NCBI GenBank assembly: GCA_038396605.1
Contig: CP121690.1
Location: 310,001 to 374,000, forward strand
Length of the DNA: 64,000 nucleotides
Reading direction: 5' to 3'
From: Eubacteriales bacterium mix99
GTDB taxonomy: Bacteria; Bacillota; Clostridia; Caldicoprobacterales; DTU083
Part shown: one piece after another, positions 5,241-14,564 of the stretch
Layout of the letters: each line of letters begins with the position of its first letter
Numbering within the stretch: the first letter of the stretch is position 1
Notes under the pieces: model-generated
What the model was told of the DNA's origin: nothing
What the model saw: the letters and a program-made list of their open reading frames with translations, nothing else
Database searches by the model: none
Program-made: the position numbers and the translations under genes

Positions 5241-5383
5241 CTGACAGAAAGGTGTGCCAGCCAACTGATATTCCAAAGCGTGTAAAAGCCTGTATCAATG
5301 ATGATGCTTACCATATTTTTAACTGCTGTGGAATTTTAACCACTGTAGGACAAACGGAAAGTCCAGATAAGAGGCATACGTAA
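5241..5383 (+). pseudogene. Decayed copy of the ribbon-helix-helix gene
   Basis: Nucleotide-level match to the intact RHH gene at 13562-13744 (shared stretches include CAACTGATA, CCAAAGCGT, TACCATATTTT and GGACAAACGGAAAGTCCA). It lacks the initial SD/CTG context, has lost two codons after PKR, carries a 14-nt insertion around 5335 (ATTTTAACCACTGT) and reads to an early stop. The predicted remnant (PTDIPKRVKACINDDAYHIF) aligns with PTDNPKRHNVKARIDDETYHIL of the intact protein. It is the first gene of a decayed duplicate of the operon at 13.5-14.5 kb. Confidence 0.8.
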
Positions 5384-5423
5384 TGAAATCCGAAGGTTGG
5401 ATATGGACCATCCAAGTCAAGCA

Positions 5424-5577
5424 AAAGGAAGCGGCGGACTCTCCGGAAAAGAACACGCCACTTCCTTCAGGCGACAATTGCCGTTTGGCACTTGCAGCGT
5501 AAATACACTATATCATGCGCGGGCAACTCCATTCAAGGCATCGGATAGACAGACAATGACAAGGAGGAGAAGATTTC
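5424..5577 (+). repeat. Conserved leader between RHH and DUF6809 genes, copy 1
   Basis: About 150 nt closely matching 13744-13905. Both contain GGAAGCGGCGG-CTCTCCGG, the hairpin TGCC-GTTT-GGCA, CTTGCAGCGTAAATA, ATCATGCGCGGGCA and ACAATGACAAGGAGGAGAAG. Its conservation is higher than that of the neighbouring RHH pseudogene. Several small indels break the 48-codon frame present in copy 2. Confidence 0.75.
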
Positions 5578-6163
5578 ATGTCGATTATCGAAGAATTATA
5601 CTACAACAATCTCGAGGACGCCATAAAATGTGGTGAGGATTCTCAATCTACCCGGGCAGACCAGCTGGAAAGCAGATGCTCGAAAAACCTAGAGGCAACT
5701 CTGAACGATTCCGAAAAGGAACTATTCGTAAAATACTGTGACGCCCATGCAGACACGGAAGAAATCACCCGTAACCATGCCTTCACTTACGCCCTGAAGT
5801 TCGGCATTCTTCTTATGGCAAAGGCCTTTACAGGCAGAAAGGATATTACCGGGGAAAGGAGTGATCCGGAGAAATCCATTCTGCGCAGACTCTTTAATGA
5901 GGACGCCAATCCAGCCGAGGACATTATGTCGGAGGATCCCCGCTATCGTAAAGTCTACCGCGAAATTGGCGAAAAAAAAAAGCCAATTGGAAGAGAAACT
6001 CCCTCCCGAGGAGCAAAAGCAACTTAAGAGCCTAGCGAGCCTCTATCTGGAGGCGTTACATCTGGATGGCTCTGCATGTTTCTCCCATGGGTTCAGCCTG
6101 GGTGCCTCTCTGGTCTCCGAAGCTTTGGCCGAAGCAGACAAACTGATGCGCAAAAATTATTAA
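5578..6163 (+). pseudogene. Double DUF6809-like protein gene, frameshifted at an A10 tract
   Basis: Paralogue of the intact 194-residue gene at 13906-14490. The first frame runs from ATG 5578 (AAGGAGGAGAAGATTTC upstream) to a stop at 6025-6027. After residue 132 it leaves the family sequence at a run of ten A (5972-5981). With nine A the frame would continue through SQLEEKLPPEEQKQL to LMRKNY at 6163, collinear with the intact copy. The break is therefore a single-base slippage in a homopolymer: a mutation, a phase-variable switch, ribosomal slippage or an assembly error. N- and C-terminal halves are both related to DUF6809. Confidence 0.8.
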
Positions 6164-6175
6164 CCCACAGTCCCT

Positions 6176-6205
6176 GCGGATACCGGCCTTTTCGGCGGTA
6201 TCCGC
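6176..6205 (+). terminator. Stem-loop after the DUF6809 pseudogene
   Basis: GCGGATACCG / CGGTATCCGC, a perfect 10-bp stem with a 10-nt loop, 10 nt after the stop codon. The T tract is weak (TCTTATC). The intact copy has the same stem at 14531-14556 with a better T tract, so this is a decayed version of the module's own terminator. Confidence 0.65.
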
Positions 6206-8262: not shown

Positions 8263-8498
8263 CAAAAATGGAAAATTAATGGAAAATTTATGATGAATCA
8301 GGCTGGAATATGTTGATATATGTCATTTCTAACATACGATATGCTGCATGGTTCTGAAACGAATCAGCGCAACGGGAGCAGGATCCCGATATGGTAAGCA
8401 ATCCCGCCCATGAGCATTTCCTGGCACCATCATCAGGAAAATAAGTCTCCGGTTATACTGCCATTCTCATAATACGGCAATCCATCATTCCATCATTC
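8263..8498. other. Intergenic, with a block repeated near 11.1 kb
   Basis: No gene seen. The block TTGATATATGTCATTTCTAA followed by CATACGATATGCTGCATG (8315-8352) recurs at 11118-11157 beside the truncated copy of the next gene. The whole 3' flank was thus duplicated together with the gene tail. Confidence 0.5.
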
Positions 8499-9311
8499 TC
8501 AGGCTGTCGCTCCTTGCCGGAAAGCTTCAGATATAGCCGGCCCCGGATCTTTGGAGGATTCAGGTGGCTCTGACGTTCCTGGAGGCTGACCCGGCGTTGG
8601 CGTCTCCGGAGACGGATCCGGCGTTGATGTTGGCCCTGGAGTCGGAGTGGGCTTTGGTGTTGGAGTGGGCGAGGGCTTTGGAGTCGGCGTGGATGTCGGC
8701 CTTGGAGTGGGTTTGGGAAACGGCTTTGGCGTCCCCGGAGACGGTGTGGGTCTTGGTGTCGGAGTCGACGTGGACGTCCCTGGAGACGAGGAAGGATCTG
8801 GCTTTGAGGTCTTGGGTGGCTTTGACTTCCGGGGTTTCTTAGATGGCTTCGGTCTCCCGGCAGAAGGATGATGCGATGTACCCGGTTTATTGGTGTTGGC
8901 AGTCGGAGGCGTCTGCCTGGACGACTGTGACTGATTATGCTGCCGATTATCGGTCGCAGCGGTCCTGGATTGCTGCTCCCTGGCTTCCACTGCTTCTGCT
9001 GCTGTCTGCCACTGTTCCTTATTGGCATTCCCCTCAGGTTCCGCACCCCGAGCATCATTTGCTTCCTCATTCCCTTTATCTTCCTCAATGGATTCCGTAG
9101 CATCTTCCTCATCAATCATTTCTCCATCGTTGACCTCGTCCTCATTCTCTCCCATTTCATCATCCTGCACCTCATCTTCCGCCACAGGATCATCATTCAT
9201 GTTTCTATACCTGTCGTTCCCTCTGCTTTTACCAGCAACGGATACGATCACCACAGTAGATATGACTAAAACCGCTGTAACACCAATGATAATTTTGTCC
9301 CGCATGCCCAC
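8499..9311 (-). CDS. Membrane-anchored protein with acidic segment and Pro/Thr/Ser-rich tail
   Basis: 270 residues starting at GTG 9311 (GAGG 8 nt upstream; ATG 9305 is an alternative). A single membrane helix spans residues 8-27. A very acidic segment (about 40-90, many D/E) is followed by a Gln/Ala-rich part. A long low-complexity tail (about 140-260) is dominated by TPTPKPTP-type motifs, as in wall-spanning stalks. The C-terminus is not an LPXTG anchor. Function is unknown; the architecture suggests an extracellular spacer or wall-associated protein. A partial copy of its tail and 3' flank lies at 11.1-11.35 kb. Confidence 0.6.
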   Translation of the reverse strand: MGMRDKIIIGVTAVLVISTVVIVSVAGKSRGNDRYRNMNDDPVAEDEVQDDEMGENEDEVNDGEMIDEEDATESIEEDKGNEEANDARGAEPEGNANKEQWQTAAEAVEAREQQSRTAATDNRQHNQSQSSRQTPPTANTNKPGTSHHPSAGRPKPSKKPRKSKPPKTSKPDPSSSPGTSTSTPTPRPTPSPGTPKPFPKPTPRPTSTPTPKPSPTPTPKPTPTPGPTSTPDPSPETPTPGQPPGTSEPPESSKDPGPAISEAFRQGATA

Positions 9312-10805: not shown

Positions 10806-11174
10806 GATAAAAGGCTTCCTCTCTCAAAAATAAATGTTTACGCAAGCTTCGGCGCCTGTGAAGGAAATAAAAATGTCCGCTCCAGATCATTCTGACAAAA
10901 TAAAGTTATCCAGAAAAATAAGCCATCAAGCCAAAGAAATTCCGTGCATAATGAAAGTATATCAGGAAAATAAGAGATCCGTCAATAAAAGCATCTCCTT
11001 TTGCTCTCCTTTTTCCAGGCAAAATTCAACATACTCCCATAAATAGAAAGAGAGCCAGACTTCTCCGACTCCCTCAGGTATGCGTCCGCAAACACATACC
11101 CCAACTACTGAAATAAGTTGATATATATCATTTCTTAACATACGATAGGCTGCATGAATTCCATCATTCACTCG
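10806..11174. other. Intergenic and decayed sequence
   Basis: No supported gene. The right part (11114-11174) repeats the 3' flank of the Pro/Thr-rich protein gene (8311-8350). Confidence 0.4.
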
Positions 11175-11345
11175 GATGCCTGTTCCCTGCCGGGAAGCCT
11201 CAGATATAACAGGTCCCGGATCTTTGAACGGCTCAGGCGGTTCTGACGTTCCTGGAGTCTGCCTCGGTTTTGGCGTCTCCGGAGGCGGACCCGGCGTTGA
11301 TGCCGGCCTTGGTGTCGGAGTCGGCGCAGGCTTCCTGGGGAACCA
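11175..11345 (-). pseudogene. Truncated copy of the tail of the Pro/Thr-rich membrane protein
   Basis: On the minus strand this encodes PTPTPRPASTPGPPPETP...QTPGTSEPPEPFKDPGPVISEASRQG, nearly the same as the C-terminus of the protein at 8499-9311 (PGQPPGTSEPPESSKDPGPAISEAFRQG). The N-terminal, membrane and acidic parts are missing. The stop codon of the parent is lost, so the frame runs on to 10962. It is a partial duplication, not a functional gene. Confidence 0.75.
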
Positions 11346-11489
11346 ACGCTTGCCAATGTCCCTTCTTACCACTCTCTTTGGGAAAGAGTCACCGGTAAGG
11401 ATAAACGGATGAAGCTCTGCCTTGACTTTACTTTTTCATTAATCTTTTCAAGTTCTCATTGAACTTATAGCCTATAAGGAAGAAATATT

Positions 11490-11566: not shown

Positions 11567-13351
11567 TTATGATAAAGATACCACTGCATTGTCGGAATGG
11601 GACAAATCCAGGGATGGAATCGATTTTCCCATAGAGGCGCTGATCAAATCCAGCAATGCATTGGCGCGTTTCTGGAAAAACCCGTTGAATTCATCCTCCT
11701 GAAGATCTGCCATGGAAATGTGATGCGTTTCCACATATTTGGTCAAGTCATCTTTGCTGACATGACCTGCATTTTCAAGTGCCTTAAGATAAACACTCGG
11801 TTTATTTCCGCCGATAATGCGATTGGAATGCGCGGTAAGAGGCGTTTTGTTTACAATGGAGTTCCACTTGCTTTTCTCATAGCCTTCCTTCATACAGTAA
11901 GATTTTGGGAAAATGTGATGGATATCAATGTTTTCCTCCAGAAAAGTTGAAAAGTCCATGGGCCTTCCACTGACAAAATCAACTGCCCCTGACTGCAGAA
12001 TTAATGCCATAACTCCTTTGTATGCAGCACTGAGACGATTCTGCATGGACAGCAGCCGCTCAGGATCAAAGCCGGCGCGGGATACGGTATTTGGTTCCAG
12101 CCCTCCGTCCAGCCACTCCATCACACCCGTTACATCATTTGCAAAGCGCGTTTCATTGGCACTGCCATACATTTCGCCAAATACCCCGCACCAATACCAT
12201 CTGACGAGCTTTCGTCTTACTGTACTGTCCAGCGTCCTGTTTTTAAGGACAGCAAACAAAACGGATAAAGGAATCAGCTGCGTGGTATATGGCAGATCAC
12301 GCTTACAGAAGATACGCTGCTCTCTCAGAAAATTACCGGTCTGGATGAAACCATGCATGAGGTCATCCGCATATTTCCGATAATCCCGGAGCTTTAAATC
12401 CAGGACATCACGTTTTTTACAGCTGACAGCCATACCGCCGCTTTTGTAATTATAATAACGGCTCACCAACGTAACTGCTGTCAGAAAGTCCGTATTGGAG
12501 ACAGTGGAAAGCAGATTCACCTGTTCGCACATGTTCTCACAGCGATGTTCCCAGTCTTTGCGCAAATCAAAATTATCCACTGCAAAAGAGGCTGTGACCA
12601 GTTCGAACACAGTCAGCGATACCCCTCCGGTGTTTACATTTTCAAAAACCTGACAAACGGCCTCTTTGGGTATATTCTTCCGTAAGGTTATGACGGGCAC
12701 CTTATAGCTCTGCATAGGTATCAGGACCGCTGCATTGAACTGTGCGTATCTTTCCAATATGTCCCTGTCATAGTGATAATATCTCTGGTAATCATTCATC
12801 CACATACTGCAGGCATAGTTATCAAATACAATATTGAGAGGGAACATGTGACTTTCAAACTCCTTCTCCCGGGTGCTGAGATCCAAAACTATCCTGCGCC
12901 CAAAATCCTCTTTTATGATTTTGTCTTCCGGCACAGAAATAATGGAATCGATGCGATCGATGCCGGACAGGCATTTCTCTATATCCATATAGTAAAATCG
13001 TTTCACGTCTTTATGTTTCTGCGTCTGAGTAGGAACCGCTTCCCTGCAGTACATGGCACAATAAATGGAAGTAAGCCGCTGCTGCCCGTCCAGAACCAAA
13101 GTATCCGGACTGCAGTCCACATTAGAGCCTGTAAAAGGACGATGCTTGAAGCGAATGGAACTGCCGTTGTACTCCAGGAACATCAAAGCCCCAATCGGAT
13201 AGGAGTTGGAAATACTGGCAATCAAAGCCCGGATTCGATCCGTATCCCAGACCCATCCTCTTTGAAAATCGGGAAGCTGGATATTCCCCTGATCGATATC
13301 CCTTAAAATGTCTGCCATTGATATATCGTTTGATTTATAGGTACTTGTCAT
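11567..13351 (-). CDS. Single-chain GmrSD-type (DUF262 + DUF1524) type IV restriction endonuclease
   Basis: 594 residues. The N-terminal DUF262/GmrS domain has the ParB/Srx-like signature D88-G-Q-Q-R-L-T and QLPDFQRGWVWD upstream of it, associated with nucleotide use. The C-terminal DUF1524/GmrD region has the HNH-type motif HHIFPKSY (H478-H479...P482), then NSIVNKTPLT and SNRIIGGNKP. Family members cut modified (for example glucosylated hydroxymethyl-cytosine) phage DNA; other DUF262 proteins have other defence roles. AAAGGATTGAGAA precedes ATG 13351. The gene is divergent from the RHH/DUF6809 operon, 210 nt away, so that operon's DNA-binding protein could also influence it. Confidence 0.85.
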   Translation of the reverse strand: MTSTYKSNDISMADILRDIDQGNIQLPDFQRGWVWDTDRIRALIASISNSYPIGALMFLEYNGSSIRFKHRPFTGSNVDCSPDTLVLDGQQRLTSIYCAMYCREAVPTQTQKHKDVKRFYYMDIEKCLSGIDRIDSIISVPEDKIIKEDFGRRIVLDLSTREKEFESHMFPLNIVFDNYACSMWMNDYQRYYHYDRDILERYAQFNAAVLIPMQSYKVPVITLRKNIPKEAVCQVFENVNTGGVSLTVFELVTASFAVDNFDLRKDWEHRCENMCEQVNLLSTVSNTDFLTAVTLVSRYYNYKSGGMAVSCKKRDVLDLKLRDYRKYADDLMHGFIQTGNFLREQRIFCKRDLPYTTQLIPLSVLFAVLKNRTLDSTVRRKLVRWYWCGVFGEMYGSANETRFANDVTGVMEWLDGGLEPNTVSRAGFDPERLLSMQNRLSAAYKGVMALILQSGAVDFVSGRPMDFSTFLEENIDIHHIFPKSYCMKEGYEKSKWNSIVNKTPLTAHSNRIIGGNKPSVYLKALENAGHVSKDDLTKYVETHHISMADLQEDEFNGFFQKRANALLDLISASMGKSIPSLDLSHSDNAVVSLS

Positions 13352-13498: not shown

Positions 13499-13527
13499 TT
13501 GACACATGTGCCACAATATTATATGAT
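13499..13527 (+). promoter_or_regulatory. Promoter of the RHH/DUF6809 operon
   Basis: TTGACA (13499-13504), 17-nt spacer, TATGAT (13522-13527). Transcription should begin near 13534, just before the ribosome site AAAGGAGG at 13546. In-frame ATGs upstream (from 13463) would therefore not be in the message. Confidence 0.85.
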
Positions 13528-13542
13528 AAATTTGTGGCACAT
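13506..13542. promoter_or_regulatory. Perfect 11-bp inverted-repeat operator over the promoter
   Basis: ATGTGCCACAA (13506-13516) and TTGTGGCACAT (13532-13542), with 15 nt between. The arms bracket the -10 box and start point, the classic place for autorepression by the ribbon-helix-helix protein encoded directly downstream. Confidence 0.8.
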
Positions 13543-13561
13543 AATAAAGGAGGTGTTATCA

Positions 13562-13744
13562 CTGCCGCCCAACAAAAAGGTGGGCCGTCCAACTGATAAT
13601 CCAAAGCGTCATAACGTAAAAGCCCGTATCGATGACGAAACCTACCATATTTTAGACAACTATTGCAGGACAAACGGAAAGTCCAAATCAGAGGGCATCC
13701 GCGACGGAATCAGAAAGTTGGATCCGAACACCAAAAAAGTATGA
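13562..13744 (+). CDS. Ribbon-helix-helix (CopG/Arc-type) DNA-binding protein, probable autorepressor
   Basis: 60-residue protein. The basic N-terminus NKKVGRPTDNPK is followed by the beta strand HNVKARIDD and two helices (ETYHILDNYCRTNG, SKSEGIRDGIRKL), the pattern of clostridial RHH proteins. The best start is a CTG at 13562, 8 nt after AAAGGAGG; the only other in-frame option is a GTG at 13553 that overlaps the ribosome site. A CTG start is rare. The stop overlaps an ATG (GTATGA), coupling it to a 48-codon frame. It is the first gene of an operon with the DUF6809 gene; an antitoxin- or regulator-like role is inferred. Confidence 0.75.
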   Translation: MPPNKKVGRPTDNPKRHNVKARIDDETYHILDNYCRTNGKSKSEGIRDGIRKLDPNTKKV

Positions 13745-13887
13745 AAGGAAGCGGCGGGCTCTCCGGAAAAGAACACACGCCACTTCCCCGGCCGACAACT
13801 GCCGTTTGGCACTTGCAGCGTAAATATTATATCATGCGCGGGCAGCTCCATTCAAGGCATTGTCGGAAAGATCGAAAAAGACAATGA
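13741..13887 (+). CDS. Possible 48-residue small protein, translationally coupled to the RHH gene
   Basis: The ATG overlaps the RHH stop as ATGA and the frame runs to 13887, 18 nt before the DUF6809 start. The product is basic (many R, K, H: SRHCRKDRKRQ at the end). In the decayed copy at 5.4 kb the DNA is strongly conserved but the frame is broken by indels, so this stretch may act as RNA rather than as a gene. Low confidence. Confidence 0.3.
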   Translation: MKGSGGLSGKEHTPLPRPTTAVWHLQRKYYIMRGQLHSRHCRKDRKRQ

Positions 13888-13905
13888 CAAGGAGGAGAAG
13901 ATTTC
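13744..13905 (+). repeat. Conserved leader between RHH and DUF6809 genes, copy 2
   Basis: Repeats 5424-5577. It can fold: GGAAG-C-GGC at its start pairs with GCC-A-CTTCC, and TGCC-GTTT-GGCA is a compact hairpin. It ends with the strong ribosome site AAGGAGGAG for the next gene. It may tune expression of the second gene. Confidence 0.65.
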
Positions 13906-14490
13906 ATGTCCATTATTGAGGAAGTATACTATAACAATCTCGTGTACGCCATAGAAAATGGTGAGGATTCTCAGTCTGCCCATGCAGAGCAACTGCAGGA
14001 TAAATGTTTGAAGAATCTGAAGGCAGTATTGAATGACTCCGAAAAGGAGTTGTTCGAAAGGTACTGTGATGCTCAGGAAAGTGTGGAAGAATTCACCCAT
14101 TATCACATTTTTGCTTACGCATTGAAGCTTGGTATTCTTCTTATGGCGGAAGCCTTTGCAGGCAGAAAAGATATCACCGGAGAAAGGAATCATCCGGAGA
14201 CATCGATCCTTCACAAGCTTTTTGGCGGGGGACTCAATCCTGCCGAGAACATCGTACCGAAGGATCCAAGATATCGCAACGTATTTCAGGTAATTGACGA
14301 AAAGGAGAGTCATCTAACGGAGAAGCTTCCTCCCGAGGAGCAAAAACAGCTTGAAAACCTGACCATCCTTTATCTGGAGGCATCTTATCTGGATAGTTCT
14401 GCATGCTTCTCCCACGGGTTCAGCCTGGGCGCCTCCATAACCTCCGAAGCCTTCGCAGACGCAGACAAGCTGATGCACAAAGATTATTGA
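13906..14490 (+). CDS. Tandem DUF6809-like protein (function unknown)
   Basis: 194 residues, soluble and mostly helical. The two halves look related. Residues 1-90 begin IIEEVYYNNL and end in FAYALKLGILLMAEAFAGR; residues 105-190 begin ILHKLFGGGLNPAENIVPKD and end in FSHGFSLGASITSEAFADA. Each half alone resembles the roughly 90-residue DUF6809 proteins common in clostridia (start ILEELYxGxI, end FxxGFRLG). It is therefore an internal duplication of an uncharacterised domain. AGGAGGAGAAGATTTC precedes the ATG. It follows the RHH gene in one transcription unit with its own promoter, operator and terminator, an arrangement like that of a toxin-antitoxin or a small regulated accessory module. Confidence 0.75.
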   Translation: MSIIEEVYYNNLVYAIENGEDSQSAHAEQLQDKCLKNLKAVLNDSEKELFERYCDAQESVEEFTHYHIFAYALKLGILLMAEAFAGRKDITGERNHPETSILHKLFGGGLNPAENIVPKDPRYRNVFQVIDEKESHLTEKLPPEEQKQLENLTILYLEASYLDSSACFSHGFSLGASITSEAFADADKLMHKDY

Positions 14491-14530
14491 TATTGATACA
14501 GCACTGACCTAATGTACCCCAGGTTCCTGC

Positions 14531-14564
14531 GGATACCGTCTCTTCTGACGGTATCCGTTTTCTT
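14531..14564 (+). terminator. Terminator of the RHH/DUF6809 operon
   Basis: GGATACCGTC / GACGGTATCC perfect 10-bp stem with a 6-nt loop, followed by GTTTTCTT. The same stem follows the decayed copy at 6176-6205, and a half-stem survives at 11490. Confidence 0.85.

Follow-up and report, generated by a model that had tools for sequence, protein, structure and literature searches.

A clostridial RHH-DUF6809 operon is probably a double-locked switch with the layout of arc-sar-ant in phage P22

The window analyzed in this work, a stretch of 64,000 nucleotides from Eubacteriales bacterium mix99, contains a short operon encoding an RHH protein and a double-DUF6809 protein that is quite probably a gene switch under two locks, organized like the immunity-I (arc-sar-ant) module of phage P22. 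The parts of this unit, the strand of the promoter between its genes, the base-pair covariation in the gap, the operator pattern, and the existence of phage counterparts were established computationally.

The way in which these parts would work together is the following. The RHH protein would act as the first lock by binding to the palindrome on the -10 box of its own promoter and repressing the operon. The second lock would be a short antisense RNA transcribed from a near-consensus promoter in the RHH-DUF6809 gap and ending at hairpin P1 and the RHH stop codon. In free operon mRNA, hairpin P2 would fold and hold an anti-Shine-Dalgarno sequence in its 3' arm, so that the DUF6809 ribosome site is open; antisense RNA bound to the 5' arm of P2 would free the 3' arm, which would then mask this site. 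Given two locks, DUF6809 would be made only when both are absent or overwhelmed, for example, right after DNA entry into a naive cell, or, alternatively, under strong operon transcription that passes through the antisense promoter. DUF6809 occupies the position of the phage antirepressor and would most likely have a part in conflicts, or in communication, among mobile elements. The features of the window operon and its neighbor are as follows.

13499-13527, plus strand: operon promoter TTGACA-N17-TATGAT, matching the consensus at 11/12 positions
13506-13542: predicted RHH operator, an inverted repeat (ATGTGCCACAA/TTGTGGCACAT) with perfect 11-bp arms centered on the -10 box
13562-13744, plus strand: predicted RHH (Arc/CopG-like) autorepressor gene (PF01402; PHROG 876, transcriptional repressor)
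13744-13867: structured gap element (R2 model, 83.8 bits, E = 1.3e-16 in its own genome)
About 13819 (5' end) to about 13737 (3' end), minus strand: predicted cis-antisense RNA of about 83 nt, with conserved minus-strand promoter and terminator
13826-13855, minus strand: antisense promoter with -35 TTGAAT (13855-13850), an 18-nt spacer with TGA, and -10 TATAAT (13831-13826)
13747-13787, minus strand: hairpin P1, the putative antisense RNA terminator; an A-rich stretch of the plus strand is its U tail on the minus strand
13792-13866, plus strand: long hairpin P2 of the sense mRNA; the 5' arm is the predicted antisense target and the 3' arm the predicted anti-Shine-Dalgarno sequence
13846-13895, plus strand: alternative OFF helix (predicted), CTCC 13846-13849 with GGAG 13891-13894 and CATTGTC 13858-13864 with GACAATG 13880-13886
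13906-14490, plus strand: gene for the double-DUF6809 small protein, the putative controlled product (PF20648, E = 5e-34, two stretches)
14529-14558, plus strand: operon terminator
11567-13351, minus strand: GmrSD_N gene, divergent to the operon, a candidate-defense match in PADLOC

The original prediction had described a self-contained, autoregulated, multicopy RHH/DUF6809 operon, and this description is supported. The promoter with a perfect 11-bp inverted repeat over its -10 box, the dedicated terminator, and the divergent GmrSD restriction gene are all present, and the RHH partner recurs in relatives. The small RHH protein matched PF01402 with 24.5 bits (cutoff, 20.5), and the tandem DUF6809 protein reached 117.3 bits against a Pfam gathering threshold of 27. 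The best start of the RHH gene is CTG at 13562, 8 nt 3' of GGAGG, or GTG at 13553, and its stop codon is at 13742-13744.

Putative RHH Repressors and Their Operators

A scan for the RHH signature, which is independent of the RNA model, returned 80 named loci in genomes and 15 in viruses. At least 10 of 12 consensus positions were matched by 71% of the promoters of homologous RHH genes and by 4% of shuffled sequences. Their operators are palindromes of about 40 bp located on the -10 box, with a dyad match of 12.4/17 among 73 homologues compared to a null value of 8.0, and they vary from unit to unit, even between adjacent units of one array. Covariation between operator and RHH sequence was weak but significant (Mantel rho of 0.17, reached in 2 of 1,000 permutations). 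Since the palindromes lie on the -10 box, differ between units, and covary with the protein, the RHH protein is likely to be the autorepressor of its own unit. The motif GRPTDNPK, or a close variant, is the signature of the RHH genes upstream of DUF6809 in seven loci.

The Gap Element: Predicted Antisense RNA Gene and mRNA Hairpin

The gap element was analyzed with a covariance model that was started from two sequences and iterated in two rounds (R2 being the model used); opposite-strand matches to some hairpins were excluded, and an apparent RNA copy at locus L044 was discarded as a false positive. In 55 of 95 RHH genes, the start of the element lies between -6 and +8 nt relative to the RHH stop codon. 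Compensatory changes were found in 32 of 32 base pairs across 78 distinct sequences, with 89% of cells paired, a count that was made on structure-fitted alignments and is inflated toward the structure; pairing also far exceeded slid and shuffled controls. When read on the minus strand, the best conserved blocks correspond to a sigma-A promoter, namely, TTGAAA or TTGACA, 17 to 18 nt, usually TGn, and TATAAT. A minus-strand promoter with at least 10/12 matches was present in 95% of the 83 elements found by the RNA model, compared to 2% of shuffled sequences and 0% of plus strands. As the model had been trained on promoter-bearing elements, the promoter test was repeated on the 31 RHH loci without a model match, of which 19 reached at least 10/12 and 12 at least 11/12 on the minus strand; the corresponding values were 4% and 0% for shuffles, and the plus strand scored in 1 of 31.

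The distribution of G-U pairs permits the assignment of each hairpin to a strand. P1 has 59 G-U pairs that exist only on the minus strand, much of this number being due to one column, and 2 on the plus strand, whereas P2 has 226 on the plus strand and 72 on the minus strand. This asymmetry assigns P1 to the minus strand, as antisense terminator, and P2 to the mRNA. The A fraction in the stretch before P1 is 0.70 against a background of 0.37, and P1 with the resulting U tail thus reads as an intrinsic terminator of the minus strand. The U tail of the window's own antisense RNA is interrupted (TTTCATACTTTTTT), and its -35 box matches the consensus at only four of six positions. The gap is therefore predicted to encode mainly an antisense RNA of about 80 nt that is convergent on the RHH gene, with P2 as the predicted fold of the operon mRNA. 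The gap had initially been considered a conserved structured leader; the structure is real, as evidenced by the covarying pairs, but the element is probably for the most part an antisense RNA gene with a minus-strand promoter. In Rfam 15, no gathering-level match was found for the window and no relevant match at an E value of up to 1 for its relatives, so that this work describes a widespread structured, putative antisense RNA element missing from that database.

A Predicted Translational Switch

The predicted antisense RNA (13737-13819) ends short of the Shine-Dalgarno (SD) sequence of the DUF6809 gene, AGGAGG at 13890-13895, which is masked in the predicted OFF helix through pairing of the SD region with CTCC and CATTGTC from the freed 3' arm. 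Among 57 homologues, the predicted openness of the SD sequence was 0.48 for free mRNA, and antisense RNA covering the 5' arm lowered it to 0.25, compared to 0.47 when the 3' arm was shuffled as a control (Wilcoxon test, P of about 1e-7). At the level of individual loci, there was a clear drop in 27 of the 57, little change in many, and a change in the opposite direction in 2. These thermodynamic predictions support a translational switch in which the antisense RNA would close the ribosome site. In pT181/pSK41-type attenuation, antisense binding upstream frees an inhibitory downstream pairing; the unit would follow the same principle, but those systems lack an RHH repressor, and their sequences are unrelated.

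It is possible, if on balance unlikely, that the antisense RNA acts through transcription attenuation, transcription interference, or RNase III cleavage instead of SD masking. Similar plasmid control RNAs use these routes, and operon and antisense transcription share the same DNA and could interfere with each other. However, there is no U-run terminator behind P2, and the predicted SD sequestration exceeds that of the shuffled control.

Similarities to and Differences from Known Systems

In P22, arc is followed by a gap of 68 nt and then by ant; sar lies on the minus strand over the arc-ant gap (PMC13397905) and blocks the ant ribosome site (PMC7968456). Like immI, the unit combines an RHH repressor, a predicted opposite-strand RNA in the gap, and a controlled gene in one operon (PMC2629481, PMC7968456). 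In both cases, the RHH gene comes first and has an operator on its own promoter, and a promoter, with a predicted transcript in the unit, lies between the two genes on the opposite strand. Phage-derived members of the set also often control an antirepressor, as P22 does. A scan of P22 with the sigma-70 consensus recovered Psar weakly, with 8/12 matches, indicating that such a scan is not a universal detector.

There are also clear differences. The downstream gene of the window encodes DUF6809 and not an antirepressor (Ant), antirepressors being found only in phage-related relatives, and P22 sar covers the ant ribosome site, whereas the predicted RNA of the window stops before the SD sequence. 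Furthermore, the gap measures about 160 nt instead of 68 nt and contains a predicted anti-SD switch, there is no mnt gene, and the chromosomal members, with their diversified operators and tandem arrays, act on DUF6809 or a different small protein. Because its product is not an antirepressor and its RNA does not cover the ribosome site, the unit was not filed as an immI module. Another system with the same control logic is copG-rnaII-repB of pMV158, in which an RHH autorepressor and an antisense RNA directed against the operon mRNA are encoded in one operon (PMC5717011); unlike pMV158, the unit has no downstream replication initiator and does not control a replicon.

The literature search returned descriptions of P22 sar and CopG-RNAII but no RHH-antisense-RNA family, no prior link between DUF6809 and an RHH/antisense switch, and no paper mentioning DUF6809; most subscription papers were outside its scope, so that absence there is weak evidence. 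This work would extend the arc-sar-ant logic from one well-studied phage, P22, to clostridial chromosomes, phages, and satellites.

DUF6809 and the Other Downstream Genes

A Pfam search identified DUF6809 in 15 of 99 related genomes. The survey of DUF6809 genes for RHH neighbors that had been proposed covered about 17 other DUF6809 genes that exceed the Pfam cutoff in these 99 relatives; RHH and RNA lie upstream of 7 of them, and 2 more have RNA traces. In the seven RHH-DUF6809 loci, the conserved gap separates the two genes. About half of the DUF6809 genes are without RHH and control region. At L010, L013, and L015, DUF6809 genes directly follow the transposon gene tnpV with an overlap of a few bases, so DUF6809 is not bound to the RHH gene alone.

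BLAST linkage of some 60 downstream proteins assigned 33 to one DUF6809 superfamily and 9 to an unrelated MIIRQLK family, with the remainder being small families or singletons. At chromosomal loci, the downstream gene mostly belongs to the DUF6809 superfamily or to an unrelated small family, and at viral and prophage loci it frequently encodes an antirepressor (Rha, ORF6N, AntA, or Bro-N). The AF2 model of one DUF6809 domain is helical (pLDDT of 82), and structure searches with DUF6809 against the PDB and viral models gave no match; neither sequence nor structure searches revealed a homology or fold link between DUF6809 and antirepressors. No relative was found when genome contigs were searched with the window DUF6809 as a single protein. 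DUF6809, a family without known role, gains from this work a context ready for functional studies. Members of the MIIRQLK family (MIIRQLK...LITxxxLLSxLLEILxxQG), such as L078 4310-4588, L117 4320-4634, and L069 4699-5004, are found under the same predicted switch and had no Pfam, PHROG, or PADLOC match; the quality of their AF2 model was too poor for use.

Toxin-Antitoxin, Defense, and Leader Alternatives

The operon had been proposed as a possible toxin-antitoxin-like or defense module, and the evidence favors neither. With the gap as a predicted antisense RNA gene, the unit reads as a switch like arc-sar-ant of phages and not as a two-component toxin-antitoxin pair. A constant pairing of antitoxin and toxin genes was not seen at the loci analyzed, where some RHH-RNA units stand alone and the partners belong to several unrelated families. 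In a mixed type I/II system, the toxin DUF6809 would be opposed by two antitoxins, the RHH protein and the antisense RNA. Such an arrangement would be consistent with the tight double negative control, with the small, multicopy, and decaying nature of the operon, and with the toxicity reported for some phage Ant-type proteins (PMC2701414). It appears improbable, however, since arrays hold solitary RHH-RNA units without a partner of their own, about half of the DUF6809 genes lack RHH, and no toxin-family or PADLOC match was obtained for RHH or DUF6809. The partners, moreover, include antirepressors and unrelated families, which makes a direct neutralization between the RHH protein and its partner unlikely.

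As to membership in anti-phage defense, no PADLOC match for RHH or DUF6809 and no consistent defense-island context were found. The location beside defense genes did not prove to be a general feature: at the other loci, the neighbors are for the most part ordinary genes (SpoVAD, aldose epimerase, Ppx, MFS), with Fic, YhcG, or prophage genes at some loci only.

It is very improbable that the gap acts as a leader of the sense strand, riboswitch-like or protein binding, and that its minus-strand promoter is incidental. This reading would agree with P2, a true hairpin of the mRNA that has plus-strand G-U pairs and covaries strongly. Speaking against it are the findings that the conserved blocks are exactly a -35 and a -10 box at 17 to 18 nt, that divergent members change TTGAAA to TTGACA, i.e., toward the consensus, that P1 with its U tail is selected on the minus strand, and that the promoter is also present at RHH loci chosen without the RNA model.

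Copies, Arrays, and Distribution of the Probable Double-Locked Switch

The entire 3.13-Mb genome contains exactly two copies of the unit. The second, which had been anticipated as a decayed copy at 5.2 to 6.2 kb, was found together with its antisense element, as follows.

About 5244-6205, plus strand: decayed copy with frameshifted RHH and DUF6809 and lost promoter/operator (about 40% identity there)
5424-5549, minus strand: antisense RNA element kept in the decayed copy (R2 model, 55 bits, E = 1.1e-9)

Since this element has remained recognizable, a remaining effect in trans on the intact copy is conceivable. A third trace at 11.49 kb turned out not to be a copy, as only a 47-nt tail behind the terminator matches (81%, E = 1e-4). 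Between the two operon copies, the minus strand carries paralogous Pro/Thr-rich repeat ORFs (8499-9311 and 10962-11372) with similar flanks (8303-8350 and 11108-11156), which suggests a wider local duplication.

Beyond this genome, the gap element was detected in 13 of 391 sampled Clostridia genomes, with up to nine copies each, the number present in the culturable Acetivibrio sp. MSJd-27, and in a small number of further genomes from the phylum. Its sequence family is found repeatedly in Firmicutes chromosomes and phages, in many cases as tandem arrays. Fourteen loci have at least two consecutive RHH-RNA units, at a spacing of about 340 to 520 nt (wider at two loci), and up to five RNA copies were detected per array. 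The arrays consist of [RHH-antisense RNA]n followed by a small protein gene, usually only behind the last unit. Arrays of three to five, possibly six, units are found at L109 1145-3526, L112 1-1256, and L075 4165-5281, and the units within them differ in RHH protein and operator.

A tentative and rather unlikely extension of the double-locked switch is that cassettes with their own operator and RNA specificity, in chromosomal arrays of up to five or six, form an inherited immunity library, in which resident repressors and antisense RNAs would silence the matching switches of incoming phages and mobile elements and the DUF6809-superfamily proteins would be the released, antirepressor-like effectors. 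If arrays act in trans, they would provide superinfection immunity based on both repressor and RNA. The many apparently distinct sets of repressor, operator, and antisense RNA are also possible compact parts for gene control.

The same family of RHH genes is found in Streptococcus phages and satellites, and the gap behind these genes has promoter-like sites on the minus strand (9 to 11 of 12 matches). At L164 to L169, which comprise Streptococcus phages, satellite phages, and a Fusobacterium phage, the RHH family is present, most gaps are promoter-like on the minus strand, and the downstream genes mostly encode uncharacterized small proteins.
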